DNA of 64,000 bases, from positions 434,001 through 498,000 of the forward strand of contig JANSYR010000002.1 of NCBI GenBank assembly GCA_024742285.1. Reading direction: 5' to 3'. Numbering within the stretch: the stretch's first letter is position 1; each line of letters opens with the position of its first letter. The position numbers were made by a program, and so were the translations under genes. The notes beneath the pieces are model-generated. The model ran no database searches. It saw only the letters and a list, made by a program, of their open reading frames with translations, and had not been told where the DNA came from. Below, piece by piece: positions 2,450 to 27,069 of this stretch. This stretch comes from a bacterium (lineage in GTDB: Bacteria > Myxococcota_A > UBA9160 > UBA4427).

Positions 2450-4153
2450 ATGGCGGGTGGACACGCCGATCCGAGCCAGCTCGATCCCGACGCGATCGAG
2501 TGGGATGCCGTGGTGATCGGAACCGGAGTCGGGGGGGCGACCCTCGGCTACGAGCTGGCGCGTCGCGGCCGGCGCGTCCTCTTCGTCGAGAAGGGGCGCT
2601 ACCTCCAGAAGGATCCGGAAGCGGAGCAGGGCGAGCTCGGTGAGCTCAGCGTCGACCCGGACGAGCGACTGCGTCGTGGCTGGTGGCCCCATCCGATCAG
2701 CGGCCGCACCGATGTGGAGGGCCGAGCGCCGGGCACCGGTTGGGCGCCCGTCCGACACCTCCTCGACGACGGGGAAGCGGACTTCTTCGCGCCCCTGGGC
2801 TGCGGGACGGGGGGATCGTCGGTCCTCTACGGAGCGACGCTCGAGCGCTTCCATCCGCGGGACTTCCGTCCGCGGGAGAATTTTCCGGAGGTAGCGGAGA
2901 CGACGCTGCCCGAGGCGTGGCCGGTGGGATGGAACACGTTCGCGCCGCTCTACGAGGAAGTCGAACGGCTCTACGAGGTGCACGGGACGCCCGATCCGTT
3001 GAGCGACGGCGAGGCGCCGCTTCCGGAGCCGCCGCCGATGAACGAACAGGACCGCTCGATTCACGCGCTCTTCGAGCAGAACGGCCTCCACCCCTATCGC
3101 AGCCACATCGGCTGCGCCTTCAAGCCCGGATGCGACGGCTGCGGGGGACGACTCTGCGTGCGGGCGTGCAAAGGGGATTCCGGGCGGGTTTGTCTGGTTC
3201 CGGCGGTCGAGACGCACGGCGCCACGCTGCTCTCCGGGTGCGAGGTCACGCGGCTCGTCGCGGATCGTACGGCGGTGCGCGAAGTGCACGGACGCTGGCA
3301 GGGGCGCGACGTCCGGCTCCGCGCCAAGGTCGTCGTTCTCGCGGCCGGCGCGCTGATGTCGCCGGTTCTGCTGATGAACTCGAAGAGCGAGGCGTGGCCC
3401 GAAGGCGTCGCGAACGGGTCGGGCTGGGTCGGTCGGAACCTGATGCTCCACGCGGGCGACATGGTCGCGATCCGGCCGAAGGGTCGCGCCGAGGGCGGCG
3501 GCTTCACCAAGACGATCTCGATCAACGACTTCTATTTCGCGGGGGGCCGCAAGCTGGGCAACTTCCAGTCCCTCGGCGTTCGGGTCGACACGGGGGCCGT
3601 CTTCTCCCACGTGCGCACCACCCTCGACAAGGGCCCCGCCTGGCTGCGCCGGATCGTGCCCTCGATCGTCGCGCGACTGATCGCTCGGGTCGGGGCGATC
3701 TTCTTCCGGAACGCGGTCGTGTTCTCCGCGATCCTCGAAGACCTGCCCTACCTCCACAATCGCGTGATGCCCGACGCGAGTCAGCCGAGCGGCATCCGCT
3801 ACGAGTACACCTATCCCGACGAGCTGATGGAGCGGAACACGCTCTTTCGTCGCAGTCTGATCCGGGCCCTCGGTCGTCGTCGGGTCACGGTGTTGAGTCG
3901 GCCGGTGAACCTGAACTTCGGGCACGTCTGCGGGACGTGTCGCTTCGGTGACGATCCTCGCACGAGCGTGCTCGATTCGACGAATCGCGCGCACGAGGTC
4001 GAGAATCTCTACGTGGTCGATGCGTCGTTCTTTCCGTCCAGTGGCGGTGTGAACCCGAGCCTGACGATCGCGGCGAACGCGCTTCGCGTCGCGCGCATCA
4101 TCGACGGGCGGTTGGGCGACGCCGGCGCGAACGCCGGCGCGGAGGAGGTCTGA
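2450..4153 (+). CDS. GMC-family FAD-dependent oxidoreductase
   Basis: 567 aa. The N-terminal FAD Rossmann motif GTGVGG lies in VVIGTGVGGATLGYELARR (about residues 22-40), followed by the ribose-binding acid in FVEKG. The C-terminus carries the GMC signature: GHVCGTCRFGDDP, then VDASFFPSSGGVNPSLTI. The family oxidises alcohols (cholesterol oxidase, choline dehydrogenase and related enzymes). A Cys-rich patch between about residues 222 and 245 (GCAFKPGCDGCGGRLC, then ACKGDSG) recalls the cluster-like cysteines of some GMC dehydrogenases. It follows the SGNH hydrolase by 3 nt and precedes the SDR by 2 nt, so the three are almost certainly co-transcribed. No signal peptide is seen. The substrate is unknown; a lipid or sugar alcohol is plausible from the neighbours. 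Confidence 0.9.
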   Translation: MAGGHADPSQLDPDAIEWDAVVIGTGVGGATLGYELARRGRRVLFVEKGRYLQKDPEAEQGELGELSVDPDERLRRGWWPHPISGRTDVEGRAPGTGWAPVRHLLDDGEADFFAPLGCGTGGSSVLYGATLERFHPRDFRPRENFPEVAETTLPEAWPVGWNTFAPLYEEVERLYEVHGTPDPLSDGEAPLPEPPPMNEQDRSIHALFEQNGLHPYRSHIGCAFKPGCDGCGGRLCVRACKGDSGRVCLVPAVETHGATLLSGCEVTRLVADRTAVREVHGRWQGRDVRLRAKVVVLAAGALMSPVLLMNSKSEAWPEGVANGSGWVGRNLMLHAGDMVAIRPKGRAEGGGFTKTISINDFYFAGGRKLGNFQSLGVRVDTGAVFSHVRTTLDKGPAWLRRIVPSIVARLIARVGAIFFRNAVVFSAILEDLPYLHNRVMPDASQPSGIRYEYTYPDELMERNTLFRRSLIRALGRRRVTVLSRPVNLNFGHVCGTCRFGDDPRTSVLDSTNRAHEVENLYVVDASFFPSSGGVNPSLTIAANALRVARIIDGRLGDAGANAGAEEV

Positions 4154-4155
4154 AC

Positions 4156-4905
4156 ATGCAGTTCGAAGGACGCACGGTGGTCGTGACCGGAGCGGGCAGG
4201 GGCGTCGGTCGCAGTCTGGCCATCGGCTTCAGTCGGGACGGCGCCCGGGTCGTGGGGCTCGGCCGTACGGCCGCCGACCTCGAAGAGACGGCGGGGCAGT
4301 GTGACGGGCGCATGCAGTTCGTGGTCGGCGACGTGGGGAAGCCCGACGTGATCGAAGCGCTCTTCGGCGAGGCGGAGCGAGAGGGGGGACACGTCGACGT
4401 TCTCGTGAACAACGCCGCCGTCTATCCACGCGAGTCGTTTCTCGAGAGCGATCACGCCGATTGGGTCGGGGCCTTCGAGACGAACGTCTTCGGCATGGCC
4501 CTCTGTTGCCGGCGGGCCTTGCCCGGGATGCTCGAGCGAGGCTACGGACGCGTCATCAACATGGGGAGCTTCGCCTGGAAGGGACCGATCCCGGGTGCCT
4601 CGGCGTACTCCACCTCGAAAGCCGCGGTCTCGGTCCTGACGCGATCGATCGCCATCGAGGTCGACCGGGCTCGCTACCCCGACGTGCTCGTGAACGAGCT
4701 GCTGGCGGGCCAGTTCACGACCCGGATGAGCGACGTCGGCGAGCACCCGGATGCGGCCTATCCGCGCGCTCGCGCGGTTGCCGCGCTGCCCGCCGGCGGT
4801 CCGCATGGCGAGATCTTCCTGAAGGACGAGGTCTACTCGGAAGGGTCTGGCGGCCTGCGATCGCGGGTGAAGCGCGTGCTGGGCAGGGCGCTCGGGCGCG
4901 ACTAG
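4156..4905 (+). CDS. short-chain dehydrogenase/reductase (SDR)
   Basis: 249 aa, the usual length for a classical SDR. The cofactor motif TGAGRGVG is at residues about 11-18, NNAA at about 84-87, the catalytic Ser in the GSFAW region (about 137), and the YSTSK catalytic Tyr/Lys pair at about 150-154. Such enzymes interconvert alcohols and ketones with NAD(P)H. It starts 2 nt after the GMC oxidoreductase stop, so it may act on the same substrate at another oxidation step. The gene ends 16 nt from the convergently transcribed flippase. Substrate unknown. Confidence 0.9.
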   Translation: MQFEGRTVVVTGAGRGVGRSLAIGFSRDGARVVGLGRTAADLEETAGQCDGRMQFVVGDVGKPDVIEALFGEAEREGGHVDVLVNNAAVYPRESFLESDHADWVGAFETNVFGMALCCRRALPGMLERGYGRVINMGSFAWKGPIPGASAYSTSKAAVSVLTRSIAIEVDRARYPDVLVNELLAGQFTTRMSDVGEHPDAAYPRARAVAALPAGGPHGEIFLKDEVYSEGSGGLRSRVKRVLGRALGRD

Positions 4906-4921
4906 GAACGGACTGCGGAGG

Positions 4922-6364
4922 TCAGCCCGACCTGAACCGGAACTCCCGCAGGAGCCGGAACGCAGCCCAGAGGCCGTAGGGCGCGAGCACGAGCCCGCCG
5001 ACGACGAGGACGCGAAGCGAATCCGGCAGCGGAAGCCAGTCGCCGCTCGCCTCGATCGCGGCCCAGGTCACGCCCGCCAGCAGCGCGCCGAGGGCGGTGT
5101 AGCCGAGCTCGGGCAGAGGGCTCGCGACGCCGATGCGCGCGAGTCGGATCGCGGGCTGGACGAACGCGGCCATGCTGCCGATGCCCATGCCGATCAGCAG
5201 GCCCCGGAGTCCGTCGATCTCGAACCCGACCAGGCAGCCCACGGTCGTGCCCGCCAGGCCGAACAGATTCGAGAGGGCCCAGCTCCTCCCGTCGCCGAGC
5301 GACAGGAGGCTGATGCAGGCGTGGACCTGCAGGAACGCGAACCAGAATCGGATCAGGGCGAGCTGGGCGATCCACTGCGCGTCCTGGTAGCGCTCGTCGT
5401 AGAGGAAGTCGAAGAAGGCCGGCGCCACGATCAGCGCGCCGAGCCCCATCGTCAACGCGGCCGGGAGCGTGACGCGGCGAAGGGAGCGGTACCGATTGCG
5501 GAGCGTCTCGGGTCCATCTCGATTCGACTCGGCCACCACGGGGGCGACCACCGAGCTGAGCACGGTATAGGCGACGTCGCGCAGGAGGGACGGGATGATG
5601 ATGCCCATGCTGTAGACGCCGAGGACCGCCGCCGGGACGAGTCGGCCGAGCAGGGCGATGTCGATCTGCGCCAGCACGAAGGAGAGTCCGCTCGAGGCGA
5701 AGACCCACTTGCCGAGCGAGAAGATGTCGTCGACCGACTCCTTCTCCCACTGGAAACGATCGATCGGACCCGGGATCCACACGTGACTCAGGATCGTGAT
5801 CACCAGCTGGTTGACGAGGCCGCCGATCACGAGCGCCCAGACGCTGGGCTCGACCCAGGCCATCGCGATCATGACCACGATCGACGTGACGCGACCGAGC
5901 ATCTCGATCGCGACGCGACGCCCCAATTGGAGGCGGCGGGTGAGGACGAGGAACTTGGTCGATTGCACGCCCATCAAGACTGCGGCGAAGGTCGCGACGG
6001 GCATGATCGTGAGCAGCTGGGGCTGGCCGTAGAAGTCCGCGACCAGCGGGGTGACGGCGAGGCCCAGGCCCCAGAGCAGGAAGCCGCGCACGACCTGGAT
6101 CGTGAAGGCCGTGTTCATGAACTCGGGTTGATCGCCGCGCTCGAAGCGCATGATGGCAGCCGGGATCCCGATGTTGGAGAACTGCTCGAGGGCGAAGACG
6201 ATCAGGTACACGATCGCCATCAACCCGAAGGCTTCCGGGAAGAGCATGCGCGCCAGGACCAGGTTGCCGATCAGGCGTAACACCTGCGCGCCGCCTTGCC
6301 CGACCAGGCTGATCAGTGCTCCCTGGCCGGCGCGCGCGCGCAGGCCCGTGGCCTTCTCCGTCAC
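4922..6364 (-). CDS. polysaccharide flippase of the MOP superfamily (Wzx-like)
   Basis: 480 aa and strongly hydrophobic, with about 12-14 predicted membrane segments. The N-terminus (residues about 10-60) has the pattern of the polysaccharide-synthesis/flippase family: a Gly-rich first helix followed by LVLARMLFPEAFGLMA. The family moves lipid-linked oligosaccharide repeat units across the inner membrane for polymerisation outside. The start codon overlaps the end of the glycosyltransferase by 4 nt (6361-6364), so the two form one operon. No Wzy polymerase is seen nearby. The substrate glycan cannot be deduced. Confidence 0.88.
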   Translation of the reverse strand: MTEKATGLRARAGQGALISLVGQGGAQVLRLIGNLVLARMLFPEAFGLMAIVYLIVFALEQFSNIGIPAAIMRFERGDQPEFMNTAFTIQVVRGFLLWGLGLAVTPLVADFYGQPQLLTIMPVATFAAVLMGVQSTKFLVLTRRLQLGRRVAIEMLGRVTSIVVMIAMAWVEPSVWALVIGGLVNQLVITILSHVWIPGPIDRFQWEKESVDDIFSLGKWVFASSGLSFVLAQIDIALLGRLVPAAVLGVYSMGIIIPSLLRDVAYTVLSSVVAPVVAESNRDGPETLRNRYRSLRRVTLPAALTMGLGALIVAPAFFDFLYDERYQDAQWIAQLALIRFWFAFLQVHACISLLSLGDGRSWALSNLFGLAGTTVGCLVGFEIDGLRGLLIGMGIGSMAAFVQPAIRLARIGVASPLPELGYTALGALLAGVTWAAIEASGDWLPLPDSLRVLVVGGLVLAPYGLWAAFRLLREFRFRSG

Positions 6365-7344
6365 GAAAGGCCCTCCGGTCGCGGCGGATGCACGTCCGGG
6401 GCCGCCCCGAGGCGGAGGTTGAAGCGGAGGAAGTCCCGCATGTGGTAGCGGGGCTCGTGGCTCTCGCGGCCCGACAGGGCGAATCGGATCCGGCGAATCA
6501 GGCCACCGAGGATGTAGACCGAGTTGGCGATCCAGAGCGTCGCGCGCCCGTGGTTCTTCAGGAAGTAGCGGCGGCGCGACGCGTACCAGTAGGGCGGCGT
6601 GCGACGGGACAGGTCCTGGAAGCCGGTCGAGACCGATCCGATGTGCGTCACCGAACTCTCGGGCACGTACGCCGTCGGCCAGCCCGCACGGGCGGCGCGG
6701 AGGCAGAAATCCGTTTCCTCGTAGTAGAGGAAATAGCCGTGATCGAGGAGGCCGATCGCGTCGAAGACTTCACGCCGCACGAGCATGCTCGCGCCGGCGA
6801 GCCAATCGACGGGGGCGGTCTCGGTCGGGAGCTCCGGTGAGACGATCTTGTGCGCGAGGAGCTTCGACACGAAACCCACGCCGAGGGTCATCTCGAACTC
6901 GCTCGCGATCGAATGGAAACGGAAGGCGGTCCGGTGGGTGTCGCCCTCGACGCCGTGGATGTAGCTGCCCGCGATCCCGTAGTCGGGATTCTGGTCGAGA
7001 AAGGTGACGAGCCGATCGACCGAGCCGGGATCGGGGAAGGCATCGGAATTCAGCAGGTAGACGTAGTCCGGCGGATCCGGGCGCTCGAGGGCGGGGCCGA
7101 TGGCGAAGTTGTTGCCCCAGGCGAAGCCACCGTTCCACGGCGAGGCGAGCACCTCGACGCGATCGCCCCAGTCCGCCTCCGCGACACCTCGCTCGAGGAT
7201 CTCGAGGGACCCGTCGCCCGAGTCGTTGTCGACGATCGCGACGCGGGCGTCCGGATACGCCCCGAGCTCTCCGAGGAGGGTTTCGACCGCGCGCAGGGTC
7301 ATCTCCGGCGTCTTGTAGTTGACCGTGACCGCGAGCAGCTTCAA
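6361..7344 (-). CDS. family 2 glycosyltransferase
   Basis: 327 aa from the preferred TTG start at 7344, which has GGGGA about 7 nt upstream and begins exactly at the conserved first beta strand (MKLLAVTVNYKT). The frame is open further upstream, but that part does not look like protein and would consume the intergenic region. GT2/GT-A features: VNYKT, the nucleotide-binding VDNDSGDGS (about 40-48), a metal-binding LLNSDAF (about 94-100), and the acceptor-side GLLDHGYFLYYEETDFCLRA typical of rhamnosyl- or related transferases (about 203-222). It transfers an NDP-sugar to a glycan acceptor at the cytoplasmic membrane face. It overlaps the flippase by 4 nt, consistent with building the unit the flippase exports. 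Confidence 0.88.
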   Translation of the reverse strand: MKLLAVTVNYKTPEMTLRAVETLLGELGAYPDARVAIVDNDSGDGSLEILERGVAEADWGDRVEVLASPWNGGFAWGNNFAIGPALERPDPPDYVYLLNSDAFPDPGSVDRLVTFLDQNPDYGIAGSYIHGVEGDTHRTAFRFHSIASEFEMTLGVGFVSKLLAHKIVSPELPTETAPVDWLAGASMLVRREVFDAIGLLDHGYFLYYEETDFCLRAARAGWPTAYVPESSVTHIGSVSTGFQDLSRRTPPYWYASRRRYFLKNHGRATLWIANSVYILGGLIRRIRFALSGRESHEPRYHMRDFLRFNLRLGAAPDVHPPRPEGLS

Positions 7345-7735
7345 CGCGTGTCCCCATGTCCGACGGACTCCGGTCCGGCCGGAGTTCATTGCAGGTCGGT
7401 CGCAGGCATGAACGGAGAGCCACCTCCGAACGCCACGACCCCAGAGAATGGTGTCCACATCGACTCGGAAGGGGGCTAGCGATAGGGCCAATCCCCAGAG
7501 GAACACGAATTCGGGCGGAGTTTCGCCGGCAATCGACACGCAGTCACGCGGGATTGCCCTACCGTTCGCAAAGGACTTCAACCCTTTTTGGGTTTCGGCG
7601 GTCACTCCCCTAGCGGCACCGCTTCGGCCCCGAAGGGTAGTGGCTCAAGGAACGCCTAGAGCCGCTCGATATGCCCTGAATCCATCGAATCCGGGAAGCG
7701 GCCGATTCGAACGTCCTGGCCTGAGGGATCCATCC
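7345..7735. promoter_or_regulatory. divergent intergenic region between glycosyltransferase and NRPS
   Basis: About 390 nt with no convincing gene. It must carry the promoters for the leftward glycosyltransferase-flippase operon and the rightward assembly line. A short perfect inverted repeat with a T5 loop lies at 7580-7594 and another (CTTCGG..CCGAAG) at 7622-7635. Neither is long enough to call an operator or terminator. GAGGGA at 7723-7728 is the probable ribosome site for the NRPS. I could not assign -35/-10 boxes. Confidence 0.4.
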
Positions 7736-10700
7736 ATGTCTGCCACCGCCCCCCAGCTCACCTGCGTGCTCGCCGGCTCCGAGTCGCTGCTGATCCAATG
7801 CGGGGAGATTCTCTCCGAGAGGGGGTGGGGAATTCAACGCGTCGTTTCGCGGGACGCTGCCATCCTCGACTGGGCGCAGGGGGCCGGGCTCGAAGTCTGC
7901 GCGGGCGGCAAGGAGCTCGCCGATCAGCTCGACGGCGTCGAGTTCGACTACTTCTTCAGCATCACGAACCTGTCGATCATTCCGGACGCGGTGATCGACC
8001 GGGCGCGTCGAGGGGCGATCAACTTCCATGATGGTCCGCTGCCTCGCTACGCAGGGATGTACACGCCCGCGTGGGCCATTCTCAACGGCGAGACCGAGTA
8101 CGGGGTCACCTTCCACGAGATGACCGGTGGCGTCGACGAGGGTCGGATCCTCGTCCAGCGCCTCTTTCCCATCTCGGACGACGAGACGTCGCTGAGCCTC
8201 AATACGAGCTGTTATGCCGCCGCCATCGAGGGCTTCGGTGAGCTGGTGGGGCAGCTCGAGACGGATCGGCTCTCGCCCCGGGACCAGGACCTCGATCAGC
8301 GCAGCTACTTCGCGCGCCACACGCGTCCCGCTGCGGCGGGTCTGGTCGACTGGCAGGCGAGCGCGCAGGCGATCTCGGCCTGGGTGCGCGCGATGGATTT
8401 CGGCGCGCGGTACGAGAACCCCTTCGCGGTCGGCAAGCTGACCCACGGCGGGCGTGTCGCGCTCGTGCGCGGCGCCCGTCGGGTGGCTACGGATTCGGAT
8501 GCCCCGGCCGGGACGCTCCTCGAGATCGACGAGAGCGGCTGGGTCGTGCGCTGCGGCGAAGATGCGGTGGCGCTCTCCGGACTCGCCGGTCCGCGAGGGG
8601 CGGAATGGACCGGCACCGAGGCCGCGGCGCAGCTCGGGCTCTCCGTCGGAGACCTCGTGGGTTCGGTCGACGCCGTCGATCGCGAAGCCGTCGGCGCGCG
8701 CAACGAGACCTTCACGCCTGCGGAGCGCTTCTGGGTCCGACGGCTGGCCCAGCTCGATCCGGTCGAAGCCCCCTTCCGCCGCGCCGATGGAGCGGTCGAC
8801 GGAACCTCCGCCGCCGGCCGTCTCGGGCTGGAGACAGCGGGGCTCCTGCCGGACGTTCCCGCCGAGCAGCGCGCCGAATCGATCCTCGCCGGATTCGCCT
8901 TCCATCTCGCTCGTCTCCAGGGGACGGACCGTTTCGACGTGACCTGGAGCGAGGACGCGCTCGTGTCCGGGCTGGCCGGAACCGGAGAAGTGTTCTCGCC
9001 CTTCGTTCCGCTTCGCGTGGAAGTGGACCCCGAGCGAGCCGTGGGCGAAGCCCTGGCCGAGTTCGGGAGCGCCCTCGGGCGGGTGCGCGAGCGCGGGACC
9101 TTCCTGGTCGACGCGATCGCGCGCGACCCTGCGCTGGCCGCCCACCCGCTGCTGTCGACGGGGCAATGGACGTCCGTCGCGGTCGGTCTCCACGCCGATC
9201 CCGCCTCCACGCCGCTTCCGCCGGGCGCCGACCTGGCCCTCTTCGTGGCGCCCGACGCTTCATCGGCGTCGATGGCGTTCGATCCGCAGAGCCTCGCGGC
9301 CGAAGATGCCGAGCGACTGATCGCGCAGCTGCAGCTTCTTCTGGGGGCCCTCCACCAAGCGGATCTTCCCGTTTCGGGACTCCCGCTCCTGGCGCCCGAG
9401 GAACGCGCGAAGGTGCTCGACGGTTGGAACGACACCGTCGTCGATTTCGATCGCGGCGCGACGGTCCGGTCGCTCTTCGAGGACCGGGTCGCGCACCAGC
9501 CCGATGCACCCGCCCTGGTCTTCGAAGGGGAGACCCTCAGCTATCGCGAGCTGGACGAGCGGGCAGGGCGCCTCGCGAATCATCTGTCGCAGCTCGGCAT
9601 CGGTCGCGACGCGCTGGTCGGTCTCCATCTGGCCCGATCGATCGACATGCTCGTCGGTGTCCTCGGCGTCCTGAAGGCGGGCGGCGCCTACGTCCCCCTC
9701 GATCCGGAGTACCCGGAGGATCGCATCGCGTACATGATCGAGGATTCCCGCGCCTCGGTCGTGCTCACCCACGCCGCTGCGTCGCCCGCGCTTCCGGCCT
9801 GCGAGGCGAACGTGGTCCACCTCGACCGCGACGCGGCAACCATCGCCGCGCACCCGGTCGCCCGCCCGGACACGGAGTGCCGCCCCGAAGATCTGGCCTA
9901 CGTGATCTACACGTCGGGCTCGACCGGCAAGCCGAAGGGCGTGATGGTCGAGCACCGCAACGCCGTCAACTTCTTCGTCGGCATGGACGATCGGGTCCCG
10001 CACGATCCGCCGGGCACGTGGCTGGCCGTGACCAGCCTCTCCTTCGACATCTCCGTGCTCGAGCTCCTCTGGACGCTGACTCGCGGATTCGAAGTCGTCG
10101 TCTATGCCGATCGGGAGCGCAAGGGCGGGGCCGCCGGCGTCGATCCCGCCAACTGGCGGCCGATCGATCTCGGGCTCGCGCTCTGGGGCAACGACGTCGG
10201 GAGCGGCTCGAAGAAGTACGAGCTGATGCTCGAGGCCGCGAAGTTCGGCGACGAGCACGGCTTCTGCGCGGTGCATACGCCGGAGCGGCACTTCGGGGAC
10301 TTCGGGGCGCCGTTCCCGAATCCCGCCGTCACCAGCGCTGCGATCGCCGCGGTCACGGAGCGGATCCAGATCCGGGCCAGCAGCTGCGTGCTGCCGCTGC
10401 ATCACCCCGTCCGCGTCGCCGAGGACTGGGCGGTCGTCGACAACATCTCCGACGGCCGCGTGGGGATCTCCTTCGCTTCGGGTTGGCAGCCCAACGACTT
10501 CGTGATCCGACCCGAGGCGTACGCCGACGCCAAGAAGTCGATGTTCGAGAACGCCGAGATCGTCCGACGACTCTGGCGCGGGGAATCCGTCGACTTCGTG
10601 AATCCCCACGGTGATCAGGTCGCGACGAAGACGCTGCCGCGGCCGGTGCAATCCGAGCTGCCGACGTGGATCACGACGGCCGGCAACCCCGAGACCTTCG

Positions 10701-12454
10701 CCCAGGCGGGGGCGGCGGGCGTGAACGTGCTCACGCACCTGCTCGGACAGTCCCTCGACGAGCTGGCCGAGATGGTCAGGGTCTACCGGAAGGCGGCGGC
10801 CGACGCGGGACACGATCCGTCGACGTTGAACGTCACGTGCATGCTCCACACGTTCGTGGGCGAGGACGACGCCGAGGTGCGTCGGATCGTGCGCGAGCCC
10901 ATGAAGAACTACCTGGCGAGTGCGATGGCGCTCGTCGTGGACTTCGCCTGGAGCTTCCCGGCCTTCGAGCGTCCCGGCGGTCCCGACTCCACGCCCGAGG
11001 ACGTCGATCTCAACTCCCTCAGCGACGAGGAGACCGACGCGATTCTCGAGTTCGCCTTCGAGCGCTACTACGAGACGAGTGGGCTCTTCGGGACGCCCGA
11101 AGCCTGTGAGGCCATGCTCCAGCGCTGCAAGGATGCGGACATCGACGAGATCGCCTGTCTGATCGACTACGGCGTCGATACGGACGTCGTGCTGGGCTCG
11201 CTGGACGCGCTCGCCGACGTGCGCGCGCGGGTGAACGAAGCGCCGGTCGTCGAGGCGACGCCCGCCACGCCTTCGGTCGACCACGGCTTCGCCGCACAGG
11301 TCGAGCGGCACGGCGTGACCCATCTCCAGTGCACGCCCTCGCACGCGACCATGCTCCTCACCAACCCGGACACCCGCGCCGCGCTGGGTCGGATTCCGCA
11401 CCTGATGATCGGCGGTGAGGCCTTCCCGGTCTCGCTGGCGGCGGAGCTCGACGGTGTCGCGTGCGGAACCGTGACGAACATGTATGGCCCGACGGAGACG
11501 ACCATCTGGTCGTCGACGGAGCCGGTGAGCGGACGGCCCGATTCGATTTCCATCGGTCGTCCGATCGCGAACACGCGACTCTACGTGCTCGACGGCGGAC
11601 GCGAGCCGCTGCCCGTCGGCGTGGCCGGCGAGCTGTGGATCGGCGGCGAAGGCGTCGTTCGCGGCTACCACGATCGACCGGATCTGACCTCGGATCGATT
11701 CGTCGACGATCCCTTCGAGGATCGCCCGGGCGCGCGCATGTATCGCACCGGCGATCTCGCGCGGTGGATGCCCGACGGGCGGATCGACTTCCTGGGACGC
11801 CTGGACCACCAGGTGAAGATCCGTGGCTACCGGATCGAGCTCGGCGAGATCGAGGCACGCCTGGCGGGTCTCGACGGGGTTCGCGAGGGCGTCGTCATCG
11901 CCCGGGAGGATACGCCGGGGGACGTGCGACTCGTCGGCTACGTCGTCGCCGAGGACGCGGCGCCGGAAGAATCGACCCTCAAGGACCAGCTGCGGGTCTC
12001 GCTGCCGGAGTTCATGGTTCCGTCGAACGTGCTCTTCCTGGACGCCTTCCCGCAGACGCCGAACGGAAAGGTGGACCGGAAGCGTCTGCCCGCCCCGCAC
12101 GAGGTCGCGAAGAAGTCGCAGGCCGAGTACGTGGCGCCGGCCAACGACCTGGAAGGACAGATCGCGGAAGTCTGGCGCGAAGTCCTCTATCTCGAGCAGG
12201 TGGGCACCCACGACAACTTCTTCGATCTGGGTGGGCATTCGCTGCTGGTCGTTCAGGCCCATCGGAAGCTGCGGGAAGTCTGTCCGATGGAGGTCACGCT
12301 GACCGATCTGTATCGATTCCCGACGATCGCGGGGCTCGCCGAGCACGTGTCCAAGGGGGGCGACGGTGGCGAGGCCGTGGCGGCCAGCCAGGCGCGGGCC
12401 GAGAAGCGGAAGCAGGCGCTCGGGCGGAGACGTCGTCGCGGAAGTCGAAGCTGA
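7736..12454 (+). CDS. NRPS: formyltransferase - partial C - A split by luciferase-like monooxygenase - carrier protein
   Basis: About 1572 aa from the ATG at 7736 (GAGGGA 7 nt upstream). Domains: formyltransferase, about 5-280, with the catalytic Asn/His/Asp set in INFHDG and GGVDEG; a condensation-like C-terminal half, about 310-560, without HHxxxDG; adenylation N-part from about 575, with YTSGSTGKPKG (about 724) and FDISVLE (about 770); a luciferase-like flavin monooxygenase, about 805-1170 (starts GLALWGND, includes HTPERHF and FASGWQPNDF); adenylation C-part with MYGPTETT (about 1248), YRTGDLAR and NGKVDRKRL; then a carrier domain with FFDLGGHSLL (about 1495). My hand-aligned specificity residues read D-I-L-Q-M-G-M-I-W, close to published glycine codes. 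Known precedents are F-A-PCP loading modules (LgrA type) and the monooxygenase inside the MtaG/MelG glycine module. Formylation and alpha-hydroxylation of a bound glycine is therefore inference. The PKS follows after 49 nt. Confidence 0.92.
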   Translation: MSATAPQLTCVLAGSESLLIQCGEILSERGWGIQRVVSRDAAILDWAQGAGLEVCAGGKELADQLDGVEFDYFFSITNLSIIPDAVIDRARRGAINFHDGPLPRYAGMYTPAWAILNGETEYGVTFHEMTGGVDEGRILVQRLFPISDDETSLSLNTSCYAAAIEGFGELVGQLETDRLSPRDQDLDQRSYFARHTRPAAAGLVDWQASAQAISAWVRAMDFGARYENPFAVGKLTHGGRVALVRGARRVATDSDAPAGTLLEIDESGWVVRCGEDAVALSGLAGPRGAEWTGTEAAAQLGLSVGDLVGSVDAVDREAVGARNETFTPAERFWVRRLAQLDPVEAPFRRADGAVDGTSAAGRLGLETAGLLPDVPAEQRAESILAGFAFHLARLQGTDRFDVTWSEDALVSGLAGTGEVFSPFVPLRVEVDPERAVGEALAEFGSALGRVRERGTFLVDAIARDPALAAHPLLSTGQWTSVAVGLHADPASTPLPPGADLALFVAPDASSASMAFDPQSLAAEDAERLIAQLQLLLGALHQADLPVSGLPLLAPEERAKVLDGWNDTVVDFDRGATVRSLFEDRVAHQPDAPALVFEGETLSYRELDERAGRLANHLSQLGIGRDALVGLHLARSIDMLVGVLGVLKAGGAYVPLDPEYPEDRIAYMIEDSRASVVLTHAAASPALPACEANVVHLDRDAATIAAHPVARPDTECRPEDLAYVIYTSGSTGKPKGVMVEHRNAVNFFVGMDDRVPHDPPGTWLAVTSLSFDISVLELLWTLTRGFEVVVYADRERKGGAAGVDPANWRPIDLGLALWGNDVGSGSKKYELMLEAAKFGDEHGFCAVHTPERHFGDFGAPFPNPAVTSAAIAAVTERIQIRASSCVLPLHHPVRVAEDWAVVDNISDGRVGISFASGWQPNDFVIRPEAYADAKKSMFENAEIVRRLWRGESVDFVNPHGDQVATKTLPRPVQSELPTWITTAGNPETFAQAGAAGVNVLTHLLGQSLDELAEMVRVYRKAAADAGHDPSTLNVTCMLHTFVGEDDAEVRRIVREPMKNYLASAMALVVDFAWSFPAFERPGGPDSTPEDVDLNSLSDEETDAILEFAFERYYETSGLFGTPEACEAMLQRCKDADIDEIACLIDYGVDTDVVLGSLDALADVRARVNEAPVVEATPATPSVDHGFAAQVERHGVTHLQCTPSHATMLLTNPDTRAALGRIPHLMIGGEAFPVSLAAELDGVACGTVTNMYGPTETTIWSSTEPVSGRPDSISIGRPIANTRLYVLDGGREPLPVGVAGELWIGGEGVVRGYHDRPDLTSDRFVDDPFEDRPGARMYRTGDLARWMPDGRIDFLGRLDHQVKIRGYRIELGEIEARLAGLDGVREGVVIAREDTPGDVRLVGYVVAEDAAPEESTLKDQLRVSLPEFMVPSNVLFLDAFPQTPNGKVDRKRLPAPHEVAKKSQAEYVAPANDLEGQIAEVWREVLYLEQVGTHDNFFDLGGHSLLVVQAHRKLREVCPMEVTLTDLYRFPTIAGLAEHVSKGGDGGEAVAASQARAEKRKQALGRRRRRGSRS

Positions 12455-12503: not shown

Positions 12504-15500
12504 ATGAGCGAAGAGGGACCGGGCGAGAACGACATCGCGATCGTGGGCATGGCGCTGCGCGTGCCCGGCGCGAACACGCCCGCGGCGTTCTGGGACAATC
12601 TCCGGAACGGCGTCGAGTCGATCGTCGACTACGACGAGGAGACGATCCTGGCCTCCGGAGAATCGCCGGCGGCGCTCCGAAACCCCGCCTATGTGCGTCG
12701 TGGTGGCGCGCTCTCCGACGTGAAGCTCTTCGATCGGGAATTCTTCGGCTTCAGCCCCAAGGAAGCGGCGATTCTCGACCCGCAGCACCGTCACTTCATG
12801 GAGCTCTGCTGGGAAGCGCTCGAGGACGCGGGCCACACGCCCAAGCGCTTCGACGGCCAGATCGGACTCTACGGTGGCTGCGGCATGGGCAGCTACTTCT
12901 ACTTCAACGTCTGCAGCAATCGCGACCTGGTCGACTCCGTCGGCCTCTTCCTGCTGCGGCACACCGGGAACGACAAGGATTTCCTGGCCACGCGCGTCTC
13001 GTACGTGCTCGACCTCAAGGGGCCGAGCGTGAACGTGCAGACGGCCTGCTCGACGTCCCTCGTGGCGACGCACCTCGCGGCCCAGAGCCTGCTGTCGGGA
13101 GAGTGCGATCTGGCGCTTGCCGGCGGCGTGACGATCCAGTTTCCGACCGAGGCCGGCTACATCTTCAAGGATGGTGAGGTCCTGTCGCCGGACGGCCACT
13201 GCCACGCCTTCGACCATCGCGCGGCGGGCACCATCCTCACGAGCGGGGGCGGCGTCGTGGCCCTGCGTCGGCTCGAGGACGCGCTCGAGGACGGGGACGA
13301 CGTCTACGCCGTGATCAAGGGGTCGGCCGTCAACAACGACGGCGGCCAGAAGGTCGGATACCTGGCGCCCAGCGTCGACGGCCAGGCCGCCGCCATGACG
13401 GAGGCCTACACCGTCGGCGAGGTCGATCCGGCGACCATCGGAATGATCGAGTGCCACGGCACGGGCACCTACATGGGGGATCCGATCGAGATCTCGGCCC
13501 TCACGCAGGCCTTCCGGGGTTCGGAGAGCGAGGGCGCGACCGAGAACCAGTTCTGTCGGATCGGCTCCGTCAAGACGAACATCGGGCACCTGGACACCGC
13601 CGCCGGGGTCGTGGGGTTGATCAAGGCCGCCCTGTCGGTGCGGAACCGGCAGATCCCGCCCTCTCTGGGCTACGAGAGCCCGAATCCGGAGATCGGCTTC
13701 GGGAATACACCGTTCCTCGTGAACGAGACCCTGACCGACTGGCATTCGACCGACGGCGCGCCTCGGCGCGCGGCGGTGAATTCGCTGGGCGTCGGCGGCA
13801 CCAATGCGCACGTCGTGATCGAGGAGGCCCCGGCGGCCTCACCGTCGGCGAGCGATTCCGACGGCTCGGTTCTCCTCCAGCTGTCGGCGCGCAGCAACAA
13901 GGCGCTCGATGGCGCCTGTGGAAGGTTGGCCTCCTATCTCGAGGCGAACCCGGACGTGCCGCTGGCCGACGTGGCCTTCAGTCTCCAGCAGACCCGTGAG
14001 GAGCTCGAGCGGCGGCGTGTCCTCGTGGCGCGCGACCGTGCGCAGGCGATCGAGCTGCTCGAGGAGCTCGATCCGCGGCGCGTCTTCACGCATCAGGTCC
14101 CGGAGATGCGACCCTCGATCGTGTTCATGTTCACGGGGGCCGGCAGTCAGTACCCGAACATGGGCCGGGATCTCTACGAGAACGAGCCGGTCTTCCGCGA
14201 GCATGCCGACCGGGGCTTCGATCTCTACGAGGAGCGCACCGGCTTCGATCTCCGCTCGCTCGTCTACCCCGACGCGGCCGACGTCGAGAAGTCCGAGTCG
14301 CTGCTGATGGAGACGCCGCGCCAGCTGCCGGCGATCTTCATCATCGAGTACGCGATCGTGCAGCTCTGGCGCTCGAAGGGCGTCGAGCCGTCCATGCTGA
14401 TCGGACAGAGCCTCGGCGAGAACGTCGCCTCCTGCGTGGCGGGCGTCGTGTCGTACGAAGCCTGTCTCGACTGGATGATCCTTCGCGGGCGCCTGACGGA
14501 CGAAACGCCGGCGGGCGCGATGGTGGCGGTCACCTTGCCCGCCGACGAGATCTCCGCGCATCTCGGAGACGAGTGCGATCTGGCCCTCGTGAACGCCCCC
14601 GGGCTCTGCGTCGCTTCCGGCGCCGAGGCTGCGGTGGAGGCGCTCGAGAAGCGACTCGGGGATGCGGAGATCGACTATCAGCGGGTGCCGGTCGCGCGGG
14701 CCGGACACTCGCGCCTCTTCGAACCGATCCTCGACGAGTTCCGTCGCTTCATCGAGAAGCTCGACCTGCAGCCGCCGAAGATTCCGATCGTCTCCAATCG
14801 GACGGGAAAGATCCTTACGGACGAAGAGGCGACGGATCCGGACTACTGGGTCGGCCACCTCCGGCACACGGTCCTGCTCTCGCAGAGTCTGGACACGATT
14901 CTCGAGACCCCCGGCCGCGTCCTCGTGGAGGTCGGTCCCGGTCAGACGCTCGGCTCCTTCGCGCGTCAGCAGCCGCGCGCGTCGACCGCCAACATCCTCG
15001 CGTCGCTGCGTCACCGCGCCGACACCATCGATGATCGCGACTTCCTGCTGGTGAACCGCGGTCGGTTGTGGGCCTCGGGCCTCGACGTCGAGCTCGAGGC
15101 GCTCTACGAGGGCCAGACGCGCCGAAAGGTCCGGCTGCCGACCTACGCGTGGGACCACCAGAGCTACTTCATCGACCGCGTCGAAGCCGAGAGCGGGTCC
15201 GTCGACGAAGGTCTTCCCGAGCACCTCGACGACATCGCGGACTGGAGCTACGTCCCGACCTGGCAGCCCACCGCCGTCGATCCCCGACGCGCCGAGACCC
15301 CGGAGACCTGGCTGATCTTCATGGATCACGCGGGGATCGGGCGCCGCCTCCGCAAGCGACTCGAGGCCCTCGGCCACGTGGTCGTCTGCGTCTTCGAGGC
15401 CGACAGCTTCCGGAAGCGCTCGGAAAACGAGTACTCCCTCGCTCCGGAGCTCGGGCGCGAAGGGTACGAGGCGCTGGTCAAGGACCTCGCCGCGCACGGT

Positions 15501-18500
15501 CGCGCTCCCTCGCGAATCGTTCACCTGTGGCTGACGACGGACTCCGAACGTTTCCGCCCCGGCTCGAGCTTCTTCCACGAGAACCTCCAGAACGGCTTCT
15601 ACAGCCTCTATTTCCTGGCCCGGGCCCTGGCGGAAGAGAACCTGCCGGGCGCGGTGCACATCAACGTCGTGTCGAACGGTCTCCAACGGGTGCTCGATGG
15701 CGACGGTCCGCTCTACCCGGAGAAGGCGACGGTCCTCGGTCCGGTCAAGGTGATCCCGCGCGAATTCCCCGACGTCACGTGCAAGAGCATCGACGTCAAC
15801 CTGCCCGACGCGGGGCGCGGCGCCTGGCGCGCCCGACTCCTGGGCGGCCGTGGCTCCGACGGGGGGCGGCCGGCGAGTCTCGACGAAGTCGCGGAAGCCC
15901 TCGAAGCCGAGCTGCTCGCGCCGTGCGAGAGCGAACTCGTCGCCCATCGCGGCGGCGAGCGATTCGTACAGCGATTCGAGGCGAGCCCGCTGGCCGAGCG
16001 ACGTGCCGAGGTCGAGAGCGGTCTCCGGGCAGGCGGGACCTACCTGGTGACCGGTGGCCTGGGTGGCCTGGGGGCGACCCTCGCCGATCGTCTGGCGCGC
16101 GAAGTCGAGGGCGTCCGCCTCGTGCTGGTCGGACGAACGCCGCTGCCGCCGACCGAGGAATGGGATGCGATCGTCGCGAGCGCGGCTCCGAACGATCGCA
16201 ACGCGACGAAGATCCGGCGGGTCCGGGCCCTGGAAGCCGCCGGCGCGGAGGTGATGACGTTCGCCGCGGACGTGACCAACCTCGAAGAGATGCGTCGGTG
16301 CGTCGGCGAGGCGAAGGGACGCTTCGGCGGAATCGACGGCATCTTCCATGTCGCGGGCGAGGTCGCGGACGAGCTGATCCAGCTGAAGGTCGATGCGGAC
16401 ATCGAGCGCGTCTTCGGCCCCAAGATCCACGGCACCCAGGTCCTCGACGGGTTGCTCGAGGAGGCCGGCGTCGAGCTCTTCGTGCTGTATTCCTCGACGA
16501 GTGCGATCACCGCGCCGCCGGGACAGGTCGACTACGTCGCGGCGAACGCCTTCCTCGACGCCTTCGCCCAGAGTCGCCGGGACCATCCGACGCGCACGCT
16601 GGCGATCAACTGGGGCATCTGGAACGAGGTCGGTCTCGCGGCGAGTACGTTCGGCTCCAACGACCAGGACGACACCGAATCGCAGGTCGCGCCGGTCGAT
16701 CATCCCTTCTTCGACTCCCGGGTCGTGGACTCCCATGGACATACCGGATTCCTGAAGAGCTACTCCCCCCAGCGCGATTGGATCCTCGACGAGCACCGGA
16801 CCGCGGCCGGCGAAGCGCTCTTTCCGGGCGCGGGCTATCCCGAGCTGGCGCGTGCGGCGCTCGCCGAATACGGCGAGACCGGCCCCTTCGAGATCCAGGA
16901 CCTCTACTTCCTGCGACCGCTCTACGTGCCGGATGGCGAGGTGCGCGACGTGCGCGTGCAGCTCAAGCCGACGGATACGGGCTACCAGCTCAAGGTCCGG
17001 ACGCGAGACCGGATCGAGGGACGCGTGGCCTGGGTCCTCGCCGGAGAGGCGCGCCTGGAGCTCGGGGGCGACCACGCGGGGCACAGCATCGACCTCCCTT
17101 CGATCGACGCGCGCTGTACCGCGAACCGGTCGACCGTGAATCAGCTCGGGCACGCTTCCGGCCAGGAAGAGCACGTGCGCTTCGGGCCGCGCTGGCGGGT
17201 GCTGCGCCAGGTTCTGTACGGCGACGGAGAGGCCCTCGCGCGGATCGAGATTCCGGAGGCCTTCGCGGGGGACCTCGACGAATACCACGTGCACCCGGCC
17301 ATGCTCGACTACGCGACGGGTTACGCGATGGAGCTCATCGACGGGTACGATCCCGCGGATGGGCTCTGGATTCCCGTGTCCTACGGCCGAATCGTGGTGC
17401 ACGCGCCGCTCGAACGTCAGGTGAGCAGCTGGGTCCGGCTTCGGAGCGCGAACGACGAGTTCGCTTCCTTCGACGTGGTCGTCGCGGACGAGTCGGGGCG
17501 GGTGCTCTTCGAGGCCGAAGACTTCACGATCAAGCGCCTCCCGGAGCCGGTCGACCTGGGCGAGGGGATCGATCCCGCGACCAGCGACATCGAGTTCGAG
17601 GCCGCCCGGCGCGCCGACGGGGACGACGACCTCTCGCCGGCGGAGCTCCAGCTGCGGCGAAACTACGAGGCCGGAATCGGCCCGGAGGAAGGGACCGAAG
17701 CGCTGTTGCGTGCGATCGCGGGCCACGCCGATCCGCAGGTCGCGATCTCGTCGATCGACCTCCAGTACCTGCTGCGCCAGGCGGAGCGCGTGACGGCGGA
17801 GTCCTCCGGCGGCGGCGCTCGCTTCGAGCGGCCGGATCTCGAGAGCGAGTACGCCGAGCCGCGGGACGAGATCGAGAAGACGCTCGTCTCGCTCTGGGAA
17901 GAGATGCTCGGCGTCCAGGGGCTGGGCATCCACGACAGCTTCTTCGATCTCGGCGGGCACTCGCTGATCGCGGTCCGATTCTTCTCGAAGATCAAGAAGA
18001 CCTATCGCGTCGACTTCCCGATCTCGGTGCTCTTCGAGGCGCCGACGATCGAGGGTTGTGCCGCGCTCATTCGCGACGCGATGGGCGACGACGGGAGCGT
18101 CACTGCCGCCGCGGACGGGGAGGCGCGCGCGCCGCGAACACGCTTCAAGCACCTGGTGGCGATGGACGCGGGCGAGGGAGCCGGAGGTCCGAATCCGCCG
18201 TTCTTCCTCGTCGCCGGAATGTTCGGCAACGTGCTCAACCTGCGGCACCTGGCGGCCCTCGTCGGGACCGATCGCCCCTTCTACGGCCTGCAGGCGCGTG
18301 GGCTCTACGGTGACGAGCAGCCGCACGAGACCTTCGAGGAGATGGCGAGCGCCTACCTCGAGGAGATCCGCACCGTCCAGCCGGAGGGTCCGTACTACAT
18401 CGGGGGCTTCTCCGGAGGCGGCATCACCGCGTTCGAGATGGCGCACCAGCTCGAGGCCGCCGGCGAGGAGGTCGCGCTCCTCGTGATGCTGGATTCGATC

Positions 18501-18974
18501 CTCCCGGTCCTGCCGCCGCTCACGCCCGTGGACCGAGCGCGCGTCCAGATGATGCGGCTGCGTCGTCAGGGGTTCGGCTATCTGGGCGAGTGGGCCCGGA
18601 ACCAGCTGAAGTGGCGGCGAGAGCGCTGGGAAGCCCGGTTCGGCGAGAGCGAAGAGAACGGCGGGCAGGGCGAGGACGTCTTCCACAACGTCGCAATCGA
18701 GCAGGCCTTCCGTGCCGCCCTGCCGCGGTACCAGATGCGGCAGTACGCGGGCCACGTGCATCTCTTCCGGCCGAAGCTGGATCGGGCGTACGTACTCGGA
18801 CCCGATCGCGTGCTCAACTCGGAGAAGCTCTGGGTCTACCCCGACAACGGATGGACGCCCTGGGTCGGCTCGCTCGAGGTTTCCGAGATGCCCGGAAACC
18901 ACGACAGCATGGTCCTCGAGCCCAACGTGCGGGTCATGGCGTCGCGCCTGCGCGAGCTGATCGAGTCCTGCTGA
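12504..18974 (+). CDS. type I polyketide synthase, KS-AT-KR-DH-ACP-TE
   Basis: About 2156 aa. KS: TACSTS active Cys (about 181), ECHGTGT (about 316) and KTNIGHLD (about 357). AT: GQSLGE nucleophile Ser (about 634) with RAGHS in place of the common HAFH or YASH, so the extender unit is uncertain. A structural KR half (about 915-1160) is followed by catalytic KR with GGLGGLG (about 1183) and LYSSTSAI and YVAANAF. DH has DEHRTAAGEALFPGAGY, with the catalytic His about 1430. ACP has FFDLGGHSLI (about 1812). TE has GFSGGG (about 1968) and a final His in GNHDS. There is no ER or MT. The KR-before-DH order differs from the textbook order. The TE makes it the terminal enzyme, probably accepting the acyl group of the upstream NRPS. 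The start is ATG 12504 behind AGAGAGGG; carrier domains need a PPTase such as that at 26201. Confidence 0.93.
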   Translation: MSEEGPGENDIAIVGMALRVPGANTPAAFWDNLRNGVESIVDYDEETILASGESPAALRNPAYVRRGGALSDVKLFDREFFGFSPKEAAILDPQHRHFMELCWEALEDAGHTPKRFDGQIGLYGGCGMGSYFYFNVCSNRDLVDSVGLFLLRHTGNDKDFLATRVSYVLDLKGPSVNVQTACSTSLVATHLAAQSLLSGECDLALAGGVTIQFPTEAGYIFKDGEVLSPDGHCHAFDHRAAGTILTSGGGVVALRRLEDALEDGDDVYAVIKGSAVNNDGGQKVGYLAPSVDGQAAAMTEAYTVGEVDPATIGMIECHGTGTYMGDPIEISALTQAFRGSESEGATENQFCRIGSVKTNIGHLDTAAGVVGLIKAALSVRNRQIPPSLGYESPNPEIGFGNTPFLVNETLTDWHSTDGAPRRAAVNSLGVGGTNAHVVIEEAPAASPSASDSDGSVLLQLSARSNKALDGACGRLASYLEANPDVPLADVAFSLQQTREELERRRVLVARDRAQAIELLEELDPRRVFTHQVPEMRPSIVFMFTGAGSQYPNMGRDLYENEPVFREHADRGFDLYEERTGFDLRSLVYPDAADVEKSESLLMETPRQLPAIFIIEYAIVQLWRSKGVEPSMLIGQSLGENVASCVAGVVSYEACLDWMILRGRLTDETPAGAMVAVTLPADEISAHLGDECDLALVNAPGLCVASGAEAAVEALEKRLGDAEIDYQRVPVARAGHSRLFEPILDEFRRFIEKLDLQPPKIPIVSNRTGKILTDEEATDPDYWVGHLRHTVLLSQSLDTILETPGRVLVEVGPGQTLGSFARQQPRASTANILASLRHRADTIDDRDFLLVNRGRLWASGLDVELEALYEGQTRRKVRLPTYAWDHQSYFIDRVEAESGSVDEGLPEHLDDIADWSYVPTWQPTAVDPRRAETPETWLIFMDHAGIGRRLRKRLEALGHVVVCVFEADSFRKRSENEYSLAPELGREGYEALVKDLAAHGRAPSRIVHLWLTTDSERFRPGSSFFHENLQNGFYSLYFLARALAEENLPGAVHINVVSNGLQRVLDGDGPLYPEKATVLGPVKVIPREFPDVTCKSIDVNLPDAGRGAWRARLLGGRGSDGGRPASLDEVAEALEAELLAPCESELVAHRGGERFVQRFEASPLAERRAEVESGLRAGGTYLVTGGLGGLGATLADRLAREVEGVRLVLVGRTPLPPTEEWDAIVASAAPNDRNATKIRRVRALEAAGAEVMTFAADVTNLEEMRRCVGEAKGRFGGIDGIFHVAGEVADELIQLKVDADIERVFGPKIHGTQVLDGLLEEAGVELFVLYSSTSAITAPPGQVDYVAANAFLDAFAQSRRDHPTRTLAINWGIWNEVGLAASTFGSNDQDDTESQVAPVDHPFFDSRVVDSHGHTGFLKSYSPQRDWILDEHRTAAGEALFPGAGYPELARAALAEYGETGPFEIQDLYFLRPLYVPDGEVRDVRVQLKPTDTGYQLKVRTRDRIEGRVAWVLAGEARLELGGDHAGHSIDLPSIDARCTANRSTVNQLGHASGQEEHVRFGPRWRVLRQVLYGDGEALARIEIPEAFAGDLDEYHVHPAMLDYATGYAMELIDGYDPADGLWIPVSYGRIVVHAPLERQVSSWVRLRSANDEFASFDVVVADESGRVLFEAEDFTIKRLPEPVDLGEGIDPATSDIEFEAARRADGDDDLSPAELQLRRNYEAGIGPEEGTEALLRAIAGHADPQVAISSIDLQYLLRQAERVTAESSGGGARFERPDLESEYAEPRDEIEKTLVSLWEEMLGVQGLGIHDSFFDLGGHSLIAVRFFSKIKKTYRVDFPISVLFEAPTIEGCAALIRDAMGDDGSVTAAADGEARAPRTRFKHLVAMDAGEGAGGPNPPFFLVAGMFGNVLNLRHLAALVGTDRPFYGLQARGLYGDEQPHETFEEMASAYLEEIRTVQPEGPYYIGGFSGGGITAFEMAHQLEAAGEEVALLVMLDSILPVLPPLTPVDRARVQMMRLRRQGFGYLGEWARNQLKWRRERWEARFGESEENGGQGEDVFHNVAIEQAFRAALPRYQMRQYAGHVHLFRPKLDRAYVLGPDRVLNSEKLWVYPDNGWTPWVGSLEVSEMPGNHDSMVLEPNVRVMASRLRELIESC

Positions 18975-21645: not shown

Positions 21646-21680
21646 GCCGCGTTCCGGGCGACCCGATCGTGACGGATGGG

Positions 21681-26884: not shown

Positions 26885-27069
26885 GCGTCTGATCCCTTCG
26901 GGGACCGGGCTTGCCTGGCCGATTCCGCCGGAGCGCGATCGCGCCGAGGGCCTCCCCGGGCCCCGAGGGCGACCGCGCTGGCCGGGGGAAGACTGCTAGA
27001 TTCGGCGCCGTCCGGGCCGGCCCGATGCATTTCGCATGGAGCCGCGCGAGCCCGGAGAGCGGGGCTTCG

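Follow-up and report, generated by a model that had tools for sequence, protein, structure and literature searches.

A predicted formylating NRPS module with a monooxygenase inside its adenylation domain, and its conserved cassette in putative exopolysaccharide loci

Introduction

Hybrid lines of nonribosomal peptide synthetases (NRPS) and polyketide synthases (PKS) are usually taken as makers of diffusible metabolites. Two kinds of described module come closest to the NRPS gene studied here, located at positions 7736 to 12454 (+ strand) of a 64,000-nucleotide stretch of a Myxococcota_A genome (GCA_024742285.1, contig JANSYR010000002.1, positions 434,001 to 498,000; this whole stretch is called the window). 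In the first kind, a monooxygenase is embedded in an adenylation (A) domain and the module yields an alpha-hydroxyglycine, as in SolF of solanimycin biosynthesis, where solanimycin B keeps the hydroxyl, while in myxothiazol and melithiazol the alpha-hydroxylated glycine is cleaved (PMC10204066). Four glycine A domains with embedded monooxygenases, unnamed in the passage of the 2025 survey that reports them, have DILQLGMIWK as a common specificity code (PMC12283262). The second kind is the formyl-glycine loading module, known from conglobatin (CongA) and oxazolomycin (PMC4504003). Additionally, a luciferase-like monooxygenase (LLM) of the palmerolide line has been assigned an alpha-hydroxylation (PMC8739492).

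A first-pass annotation of the gene, made from the sequence alone, had suggested that its oxidation chemistry would be new. With myxothiazol, melithiazol, and solanimycin as precedents it is not new in kind, and the unusual part is its combination with formyl loading. The larger finding, beyond the single gene, is a conserved cassette that appears to be linked to exopolysaccharide and is probably a dedicated supply of N-formyl-(hydroxy)glycyl-polyketide units for it, i.e., a source of a small coat building block rather than of an ordinary antibiotic-like compound.

Results

Reading frame and domain order

An uninterrupted open reading frame (ORF) occupies positions 7448 to 12454 of the + strand. 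Its likely start is the ATG at 7736, with GAGGG just upstream, and the same point is where similarity to relatives sets in; both agree with the start first annotated. The gene and its parts are as follows.

7736..12454, + strand, the NRPS gene of the first-pass annotation, with domain order formyltransferase (F), condensation (C) domain remnant, A domain split by the LLM, and peptidyl carrier protein (PCP)
7736..8662, + strand, F domain (Pfam, AlphaFold2, ArnA 2bln match, catalytic Asn/His/Asp kept)
8720..9451, + strand, C-terminal lobe of a C domain, without the HHxxxDG lobe (hhalign)
9476..10114, + strand, first part of the A domain, up to motif A4 (Pfam AMP-binding, motifs)
10184..11224, + strand, luciferase-like flavin mononucleotide (FMN) monooxygenase of TIGR04020, between A4 and A5 (476.9 bits; PuwE 6ket)
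11279..12070, + strand, second part of the A domain, A5 to A10 (Pfam, NCBIfam, motifs)
12158..12349, + strand, PCP with DLGGHS (Pfam, alignment)

In the gene product Pfam detected Formyl_trans_N (3.8e-17), Formyl_trans_C (4.9e-6), Bac_luciferase (4.8e-48), AMP-binding in two stretches (1.4e-90), AMP-binding_C, and PP-binding, and the A-domain model of NCBIfam, TIGR01733, was likewise matched in two stretches. The presence of a formyltransferase, a C-domain remnant, and an LLM-split A domain in one gene, as first proposed, was thus borne out by Pfam, NCBIfam, hhalign, and AlphaFold2. A frameshifted fusion of separate genes was rejected, since the window shows no break in the frame and relatives have whole ORFs of ~1400 to 1680 aa. 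Chance or artefact was rejected as well, because the same architecture is found in relatives of several phyla and its partners co-vary.

Formyltransferase domain and condensation-domain lobe

Relatives were collected by a scan with one genome per species, of which the best 80 of 531 were kept (L049 to L128), with up to 10 kb of flanking sequence. They were retrieved by their LLM, and the presence of this domain in all of them is therefore no test. A separate survey covered 60 genomes, including that of the window, 20 of which had an LLM over the TIGR04020 cut-off. Among the 20 stretches taken from it, 15 had the F domain, two (L029 and L030) had a full C domain, and in two others (L031 and L035) the contig ended before that part. 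In the remaining one, L046 (G052:C12:117000-136999), the TIGR04020 domain belongs to a multi-module PKS-NRPS in a context unlike that described below. The alignment used for catalytic residues and specificity codes had 83 rows: 80 of 81 loci with an ORF of >1400 aa, plus L029, L030, and L034.

The catalytic Asn, His, and Asp of the formyltransferase, already noted at first reading, are present in 79/83 rows, the window among them; the exceptions are L062 (Asn for Asp) and L029, L030, and L068, which have no F domain. The AlphaFold2 model of this domain (pLDDT 92.8) matched ArnA 2bln with Z 28.3 and 2.6 A over 291 residues, so that, as in formylating loading modules of the LgrA/CongA type, a formyltransferase fold is found together with its Asn, His, and Asp. 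By hhalign, the 80 remnant sequences aligned with three full C domains at 99.1% probability over template residues 190 to 457 of 480. Since HHxxxDG lies at about residue 133 to 137 of these three domains, its lobe is absent from the gene product, and the C-domain remnant of the first annotation is confirmed as a C-terminal lobe. Structural comparison of the model of the formyltransferase half listed only formyltransferase-type matches and none for the C lobe, for which reason the assignment of the lobe rests on hhalign and not on fold. The truncated lobe would probably be a mere spacer that holds the F and A domains in position.

In L029, L030, and L068 a full C domain (motifs HHLLMDG, PHIVLDG, and HHILLDG, respectively) replaces both the F domain and the C lobe, while the A, LLM, and PCP parts are retained, and these versions are nested among the F versions in the tree. 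They suggest that the LLM would act on N-acyl glycine regardless of the acyl group, and the exchange of F for a full C domain in these three points to N-acylation before hydroxylation.

Loading modules with F, C lobe, and A domain but without LLM also head multi-module NRPSs on rhizobial plasmids (L133, 8001-11453, and L134, 8001-11498). These came from hits H36 to H85 of one search, in which the missing LLM was confirmed for these two loci; both modules sit outside the cassette described here.

The split adenylation domain and its monooxygenase

Motifs A3, A4, A5, and A10 are all present, and the LLM is inserted between A4 (FDISVLE) and A5 (NMYGPTE). Its score against TIGR04020, the MupA/Atu3671 family, was 476.9 bits (curated cut-off 244.45) over model positions 6 to 341 of 341, and the complete LLM inside the A domain that had been claimed is therefore real. 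The AlphaFold2 model of the A-LLM-A part (mean pLDDT 84.1, pTM 0.53) matched A domains (8www, TMt 0.84; 1amu_A, TMt 0.79) as well as the solved NRPS/PKS monooxygenase domain PuwE 6ket (TMt 0.90, 44% identity), to which the LLM also aligned by sequence over nearly its full length (E 1.4e-100). Two LLM signatures, TPERHF and THLLGQ, are each kept in 83/83 rows, and PERHF is common to the solved PuwE.

Alignment gave the specificity code DILQMGMIWK, with K517 as the tenth residue, and recovered exactly the nine letters (DILQMGMIW) that had been aligned by hand. This code was found in 49 rows (window included), DILQLGMIWK in 21, and DILQFGMIWK in 6, and the pattern DILQ[MLFC]GM[IV]WK fits 81/83, the other two having a gap at the last position or being out of register from position 322. 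The closeness to glycine codes stated in the first annotation is upheld, the code being one residue off the DILQLGMIWK of monooxygenase-bearing glycine domains in the survey passage (PMC12283262).

Compared with modules of the MtaG/SolF type, the gene thus has the inserted LLM with intact A parts on either side and the glycine code (a predicted specificity), and instead of an upstream C domain for an incoming chain it has the C-terminal lobe alone. MtaG and MelG are the monooxygenase-bearing glycine modules of myxothiazol and melithiazol. From its code, the A domain is predicted with high confidence to activate glycine. N-formylation of the carrier-bound glycine is very likely, and alpha-hydroxylation of the N-acyl glycine by the LLM is likely.

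A conserved cassette

As first annotated, a PKS lies downstream; it is the next gene, starting at ATG 12504. Two more genes of the window recur with this pair.

12504..18974, + strand, type I PKS with ketosynthase (KS), acyltransferase (AT), ketoreductase (KR), dehydratase (DH), acyl carrier protein (ACP), and thioesterase (TE), a single extension module that carries its own thioesterase (Pfam, homologue active sites)
6361..7605, - strand, GT2 glycosyltransferase (divergent), member of the cassette (family c2)
25994..26884, + strand, 4'-phosphopantetheinyl transferase (PPTase), which probably arms the carrier domains (family c3)

Across 65 PKS homologues, the KS Cys and His and the Ser of both AT and ACP are almost invariably retained, and the TE Ser and His are present in most, according to the variants listed. 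The DH keeps its His and Asp, and its second motif, HPAMLDYATG, has Gly at the usual Gln/His place, as do the commonest variants among the homologues; the textbook motif has Gln or His there. At the usual specificity stretch of the AT, the window has RAGH and the variants listed for relatives mostly have IAAH, which gives no confident prediction of the extender.

The 80 loci had the F domain in 78 cases (L057 is cut off, and L068 has a C domain), a homologous KS-AT-KR-DH-ACP-TE PKS in 71, the same GT2 in 49, and the PPTase in 47; PKS and GT2 occurred together in 48 and PKS, GT2, and PPTase in 39. Clustering of neighbours in 81 loci, including the window, retrieved the PKS in 68, the GT2 in 45, and the PPTase in 42, and the next commonest families were GT4, chain-length, flippase, GT2, and WcaJ-type sugar transferase genes. 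The GT2 adjoins the NRPS or the PKS in 42/45 loci, and most Rhodobacteraceae loci are arranged as PKS-GT2-NRPS-PPTase. The partners also diverge together, with distance correlations between NRPS and PKS of r = 0.927 (n = 64), NRPS and GT2 of 0.742 (n = 45), and NRPS and PPTase of 0.647 (n = 42), each with 0/999 permutations as high.

Comparison with related clusters, advised by the first-pass annotation, therefore revealed a conserved NRPS-PKS-GT2-PPTase cassette. That annotation had treated the gene as a one-off natural-product loading module; instead, it belongs to a conserved cassette with GT2 and usually PPTase, in what read as exopolysaccharide loci. A one-off natural product cluster as the default was set aside on account of the recurrence in relatives, the conserved neighbours, and the proximity of flippases.

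In the tree of the 83 rows, the window stands beside L049 (Deltaproteobacteria bacterium UBA4427, 70% identity) in a mainly Myxococcota clade, and rows of Planctomycetota, Gemmatimonadota, Chloroflexota, Rhodothermota, Omnitrophota, and Pseudomonadota are intermixed. The cassette in exopolysaccharide loci was found in Myxococcota, Planctomycetota, Gemmatimonadota, Chloroflexota, and Alpha-, Beta-, and Gammaproteobacteria. Carriers include the cultured genera Leisingera, Phaeobacter, Ruegeria, Paracoccus, Aminobacter, and Hydrogenophaga, and in several Alphaproteobacteria it is located on plasmids. On five annotated plasmids (Ruegeria sp. SCSIO 43209, Paracoccus marcusii, Aminobacter sp. MSH1, Shinella zoogloeoides, and Parasedimentitalea marina) it sits amid glycosyltransferases, flippases, sugar transferases, and export genes.

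Exopolysaccharide context

Around the NRPS-PKS pair the window holds the following genes, with a GDSL hydrolase gene listed ahead of the first.

2450..4153, + strand, GMC-family oxidoreductase (family in 4/81 loci; near the cassette in Paracoccus marcusii)
4156..4905, + strand, short-chain dehydrogenase (beside the GMC gene also in Paracoccus marcusii)
4922..6364, - strand, Wzx/MOP-type polysaccharide flippase (sole PF13440 match in the genome at E <= 1e-10)
19151..20212, + strand, homologue of XrtA-type polysaccharide tyrosine autokinases (below the family cut-off)
20209..21645, + strand, homologue of XrtA-type polysaccharide chain-length determinants (below the family cut-off)
21642..22535, + strand, divergent exosortase-like membrane protein (weak PF09721 match, E 0.0092, below cut-off)
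22532..23218, + strand, EpsI, exosortase-associated protein (over the TIGR02914 cut-off)
26911..28110, + strand, GDP-mannose 4,6-dehydratase for nucleotide-sugar supply (over the cut-off)

Flippase, glycosyltransferase, and chain-length genes thus stand beside the cassette, and the locus reads as an exopolysaccharide locus because flippase, GT2, kinase and chain-length homologues, EpsI, and GDP-mannose dehydratase surround the NRPS-PKS pair. An EpsI homologue was present in 2/80 loci. The exosortase-like protein between the chain-length gene and EpsI is perhaps a degenerate or new type of exosortase. An FG-GAP repeat protein (28162-29925) is encoded downstream of the GDP-mannose dehydratase, and a GGDEF-EAL protein near the locus (34792-36891, - strand) could link it to cyclic di-GMP control.

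Proximity was assessed in 33 of the 80 loci, picked for long contigs, plus the genome of the window and G001 (35 genomes, after removal of G012 from 36 because L060 is in the same genome, G063). A PF13440 flippase was found within 40 kb of the LLM in 27/35 genomes, with 0.93 expected from random placement, and within 20 kb in 17/35 (0.47 expected). Similarly, a PF02397 sugar transferase was within 40 kb in 21/35 (1.69 expected) and within 20 kb in 16/35 (0.85 expected). As a control, we looked for condensation domains (E <= 1e-25), which were found in 10/35 genomes; 25/35, that of the window included, had none besides the cassette. Often, therefore, the cassette supplies the only recognisable C or C-like part among the NRPS-like genes of a genome.

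Several results weigh against a dedicated exopolysaccharide role. Within flanks of <=10 kb the GT2 was present in just 49/80 loci and the PPTase in 47/80, and 8/35 genomes had no flippase within 40 kb; contig ends may account for some of these, not for all, the nearest one in G086 being on the same contig at 1.8 Mb. The random-placement null ignores the clumping of clusters, and the 35 genomes are partly related, which makes its P values too small. Among 12 condensation-domain loci outside the family, 5 were within 10 kb of a flippase, and the association with flippases is therefore not peculiar to the cassette; NRPS genes near polysaccharide genes are a broader pattern in these bacteria. On the side of the enzymes, the DH may be altered, to judge from the DxxxG of its second motif, and the TE can simply hydrolyse its product.

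Other condensation-domain NRPSs within 10 kb of a flippase are at G068:C54:206835, G070:C7:233977, G075:C1:488385, G076:C2:463781-471212, G081:C2:799991, and L130 (1-281), as if several kinds of small NRPS served exopolysaccharide loci.

Discussion

Proposed biosynthesis and alternative readings

In the route that we favor, the split A domain would load glycine onto the PCP, and the F domain would formylate it from formyl-tetrahydrofolate. The embedded LLM, supplied with reduced FMN, would then hydroxylate the alpha carbon of the N-acyl-glycyl thioester. The resulting unit would be passed to the KS and extended once, probably with malonyl, after which the KR would reduce the extended unit, the DH would perhaps dehydrate it, and it would leave through the TE by release or transfer. 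What would end up on the polysaccharide, or on its lipid-linked repeat unit, is a short acyl unit derived from N-formyl-(hydroxy)glycyl, or a derivative of that unit, and the GT2 of the cassette would add the sugar that bears or receives it. We consider a role of the cassette in polysaccharide fairly likely, and on balance we read the gene as the loading half of a two-protein NRPS-PKS within exopolysaccharide biosynthesis. Only tentatively do we suggest an undescribed and widespread class of assembly lines, in which an N-formyl-alpha-hydroxyglycyl starter would undergo one PKS extension and be transferred by the TE (or with the GT2) onto a repeat unit of the exopolysaccharide. The resulting coat polymer would bear a reactive acyl group of the hemiaminal type, which could crosslink or bind metal. 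The open-licence PMC literature, as far as the retrieved portions extend, yielded no description of the cassette as a polysaccharide-associated system, which is not proof of absence.

The product of the cassette could instead be a common diffusible compound, such as a signal or a molecule resembling a siderophore or an antibiotic, perhaps with a sugar added by the GT2, and the cassette would merely travel with exopolysaccharide genes. We judge this rather unlikely, even though the cassette crosses phyla like mobile biosynthetic clusters, is plasmid-borne in several Alphaproteobacteria, and ends in a TE, with which NRPS-PKS hybrids usually release free products. The line encodes no more than a single short extension, the annotated conserved neighbours are notable for genes of glycosyltransferases, flippases, chain-length proteins, and sugar transferases, and the 25/35 genomes without another condensation domain are unlike typical producers. 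No receptor or resistance gene was seen among the annotated neighbour families (c13, c16-c18, c20, and c22-c26 left out), and the absence of a receptor from these conserved families makes the siderophore version somewhat less likely.

With respect to the fate of the hydroxyl, retention seems somewhat the better reading. The opposite outcome, which we consider rather unlikely, would have the LLM yield an unstable carbinolamide from which formamide departs as in myxothiazol, so that the carrier keeps a glyoxylyl thioester, the PKS starts from glyoxylate, and formylation is a mere trigger. The LLM domain and the glycine code are of the same kind as in myxothiazol-type modules; solanimycin, however, keeps its alpha-hydroxyglycine, so cleavage is not automatic, and the three relatives with a full C domain instead of F would discard a larger acyl group. 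It is improbable that the LLM does something else, whether it N-hydroxylates glycine, oxidises the extended chain, or catalyses nothing, and that formyl-glycine is loaded unmodified, in the manner of oxazolomycin and conglobatin. Although CongA is a precedent for such loading ahead of a PKS (PMC4504003) and general scans of the window identified no flavin reductase beside the gene, the invariant LLM signatures, one of them shared with PuwE, and the placement of the LLM-free modules of L133 and L134 in multi-module NRPSs outside the cassette speak against it.

The module would reveal whether an A-embedded monooxygenase works on the smallest possible N-acyl amino acid. A conserved NRPS-PKS pair with GT2 and PPTase in exopolysaccharide loci also suggests that assembly lines furnish surface building blocks, and genome-mining tools would misfile lines of this sort.

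Comparison with known systems

Two published loci resemble the cassette. In Bosea sp. NBC_00550, a small NRPS-T1PKS core has glycosyltransferases and polysaccharide genes in its vicinity, a resemblance by description only, from which the passage concerned draws no functional conclusion (PMC10508160). For Phaeobacter inhibens T5, the PKS Inhi_1972 and the NRPS Inhi_1974 are listed, with no product reported in that part of the paper (PMC4062626); the spacing of their locus tags, the only point compared, fits the PKS-GT2-NRPS order of Phaeobacter sp. 11ANDIMAR09 (L111) and Leisingera.

At the level of the module, the initiation module of linear gramicidin, LgrA (F-A-PCP), is alike in formylating a carrier-bound starter and is the best solved-structure match to the A domain of the window by sequence; unlike the window protein, it is without an LLM. 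LgrA starts with Val, and its F and A domains are not known to be separated by a C lobe. The monooxygenase domain of PuwE (6ket) is the closest solved structure for the LLM, in the different context of a cyanobacterial hybrid line.

The loading modules of oxazolomycin (OzmO) and conglobatin (CongA) share with the window an F domain and a glycine A domain opening a PKS line, and that of rhizopodin, which also uses glycine, shares the F domain. In contrast to the window, no monooxygenase is described in their loading A domain in the source passages, and their lines make large polyketides with oxazoles, whereas the window encodes a one-extension unit in a polysaccharide locus. MtaG, MelG, and SolF have in common with it a glycine A domain with an internal flavin monooxygenase, the code of the window being a single letter away from the one given in the survey passage for such domains. 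However, these modules use a condensation domain to extend a chain, while in the window formyl loading and a half-lost C domain precede a PKS.

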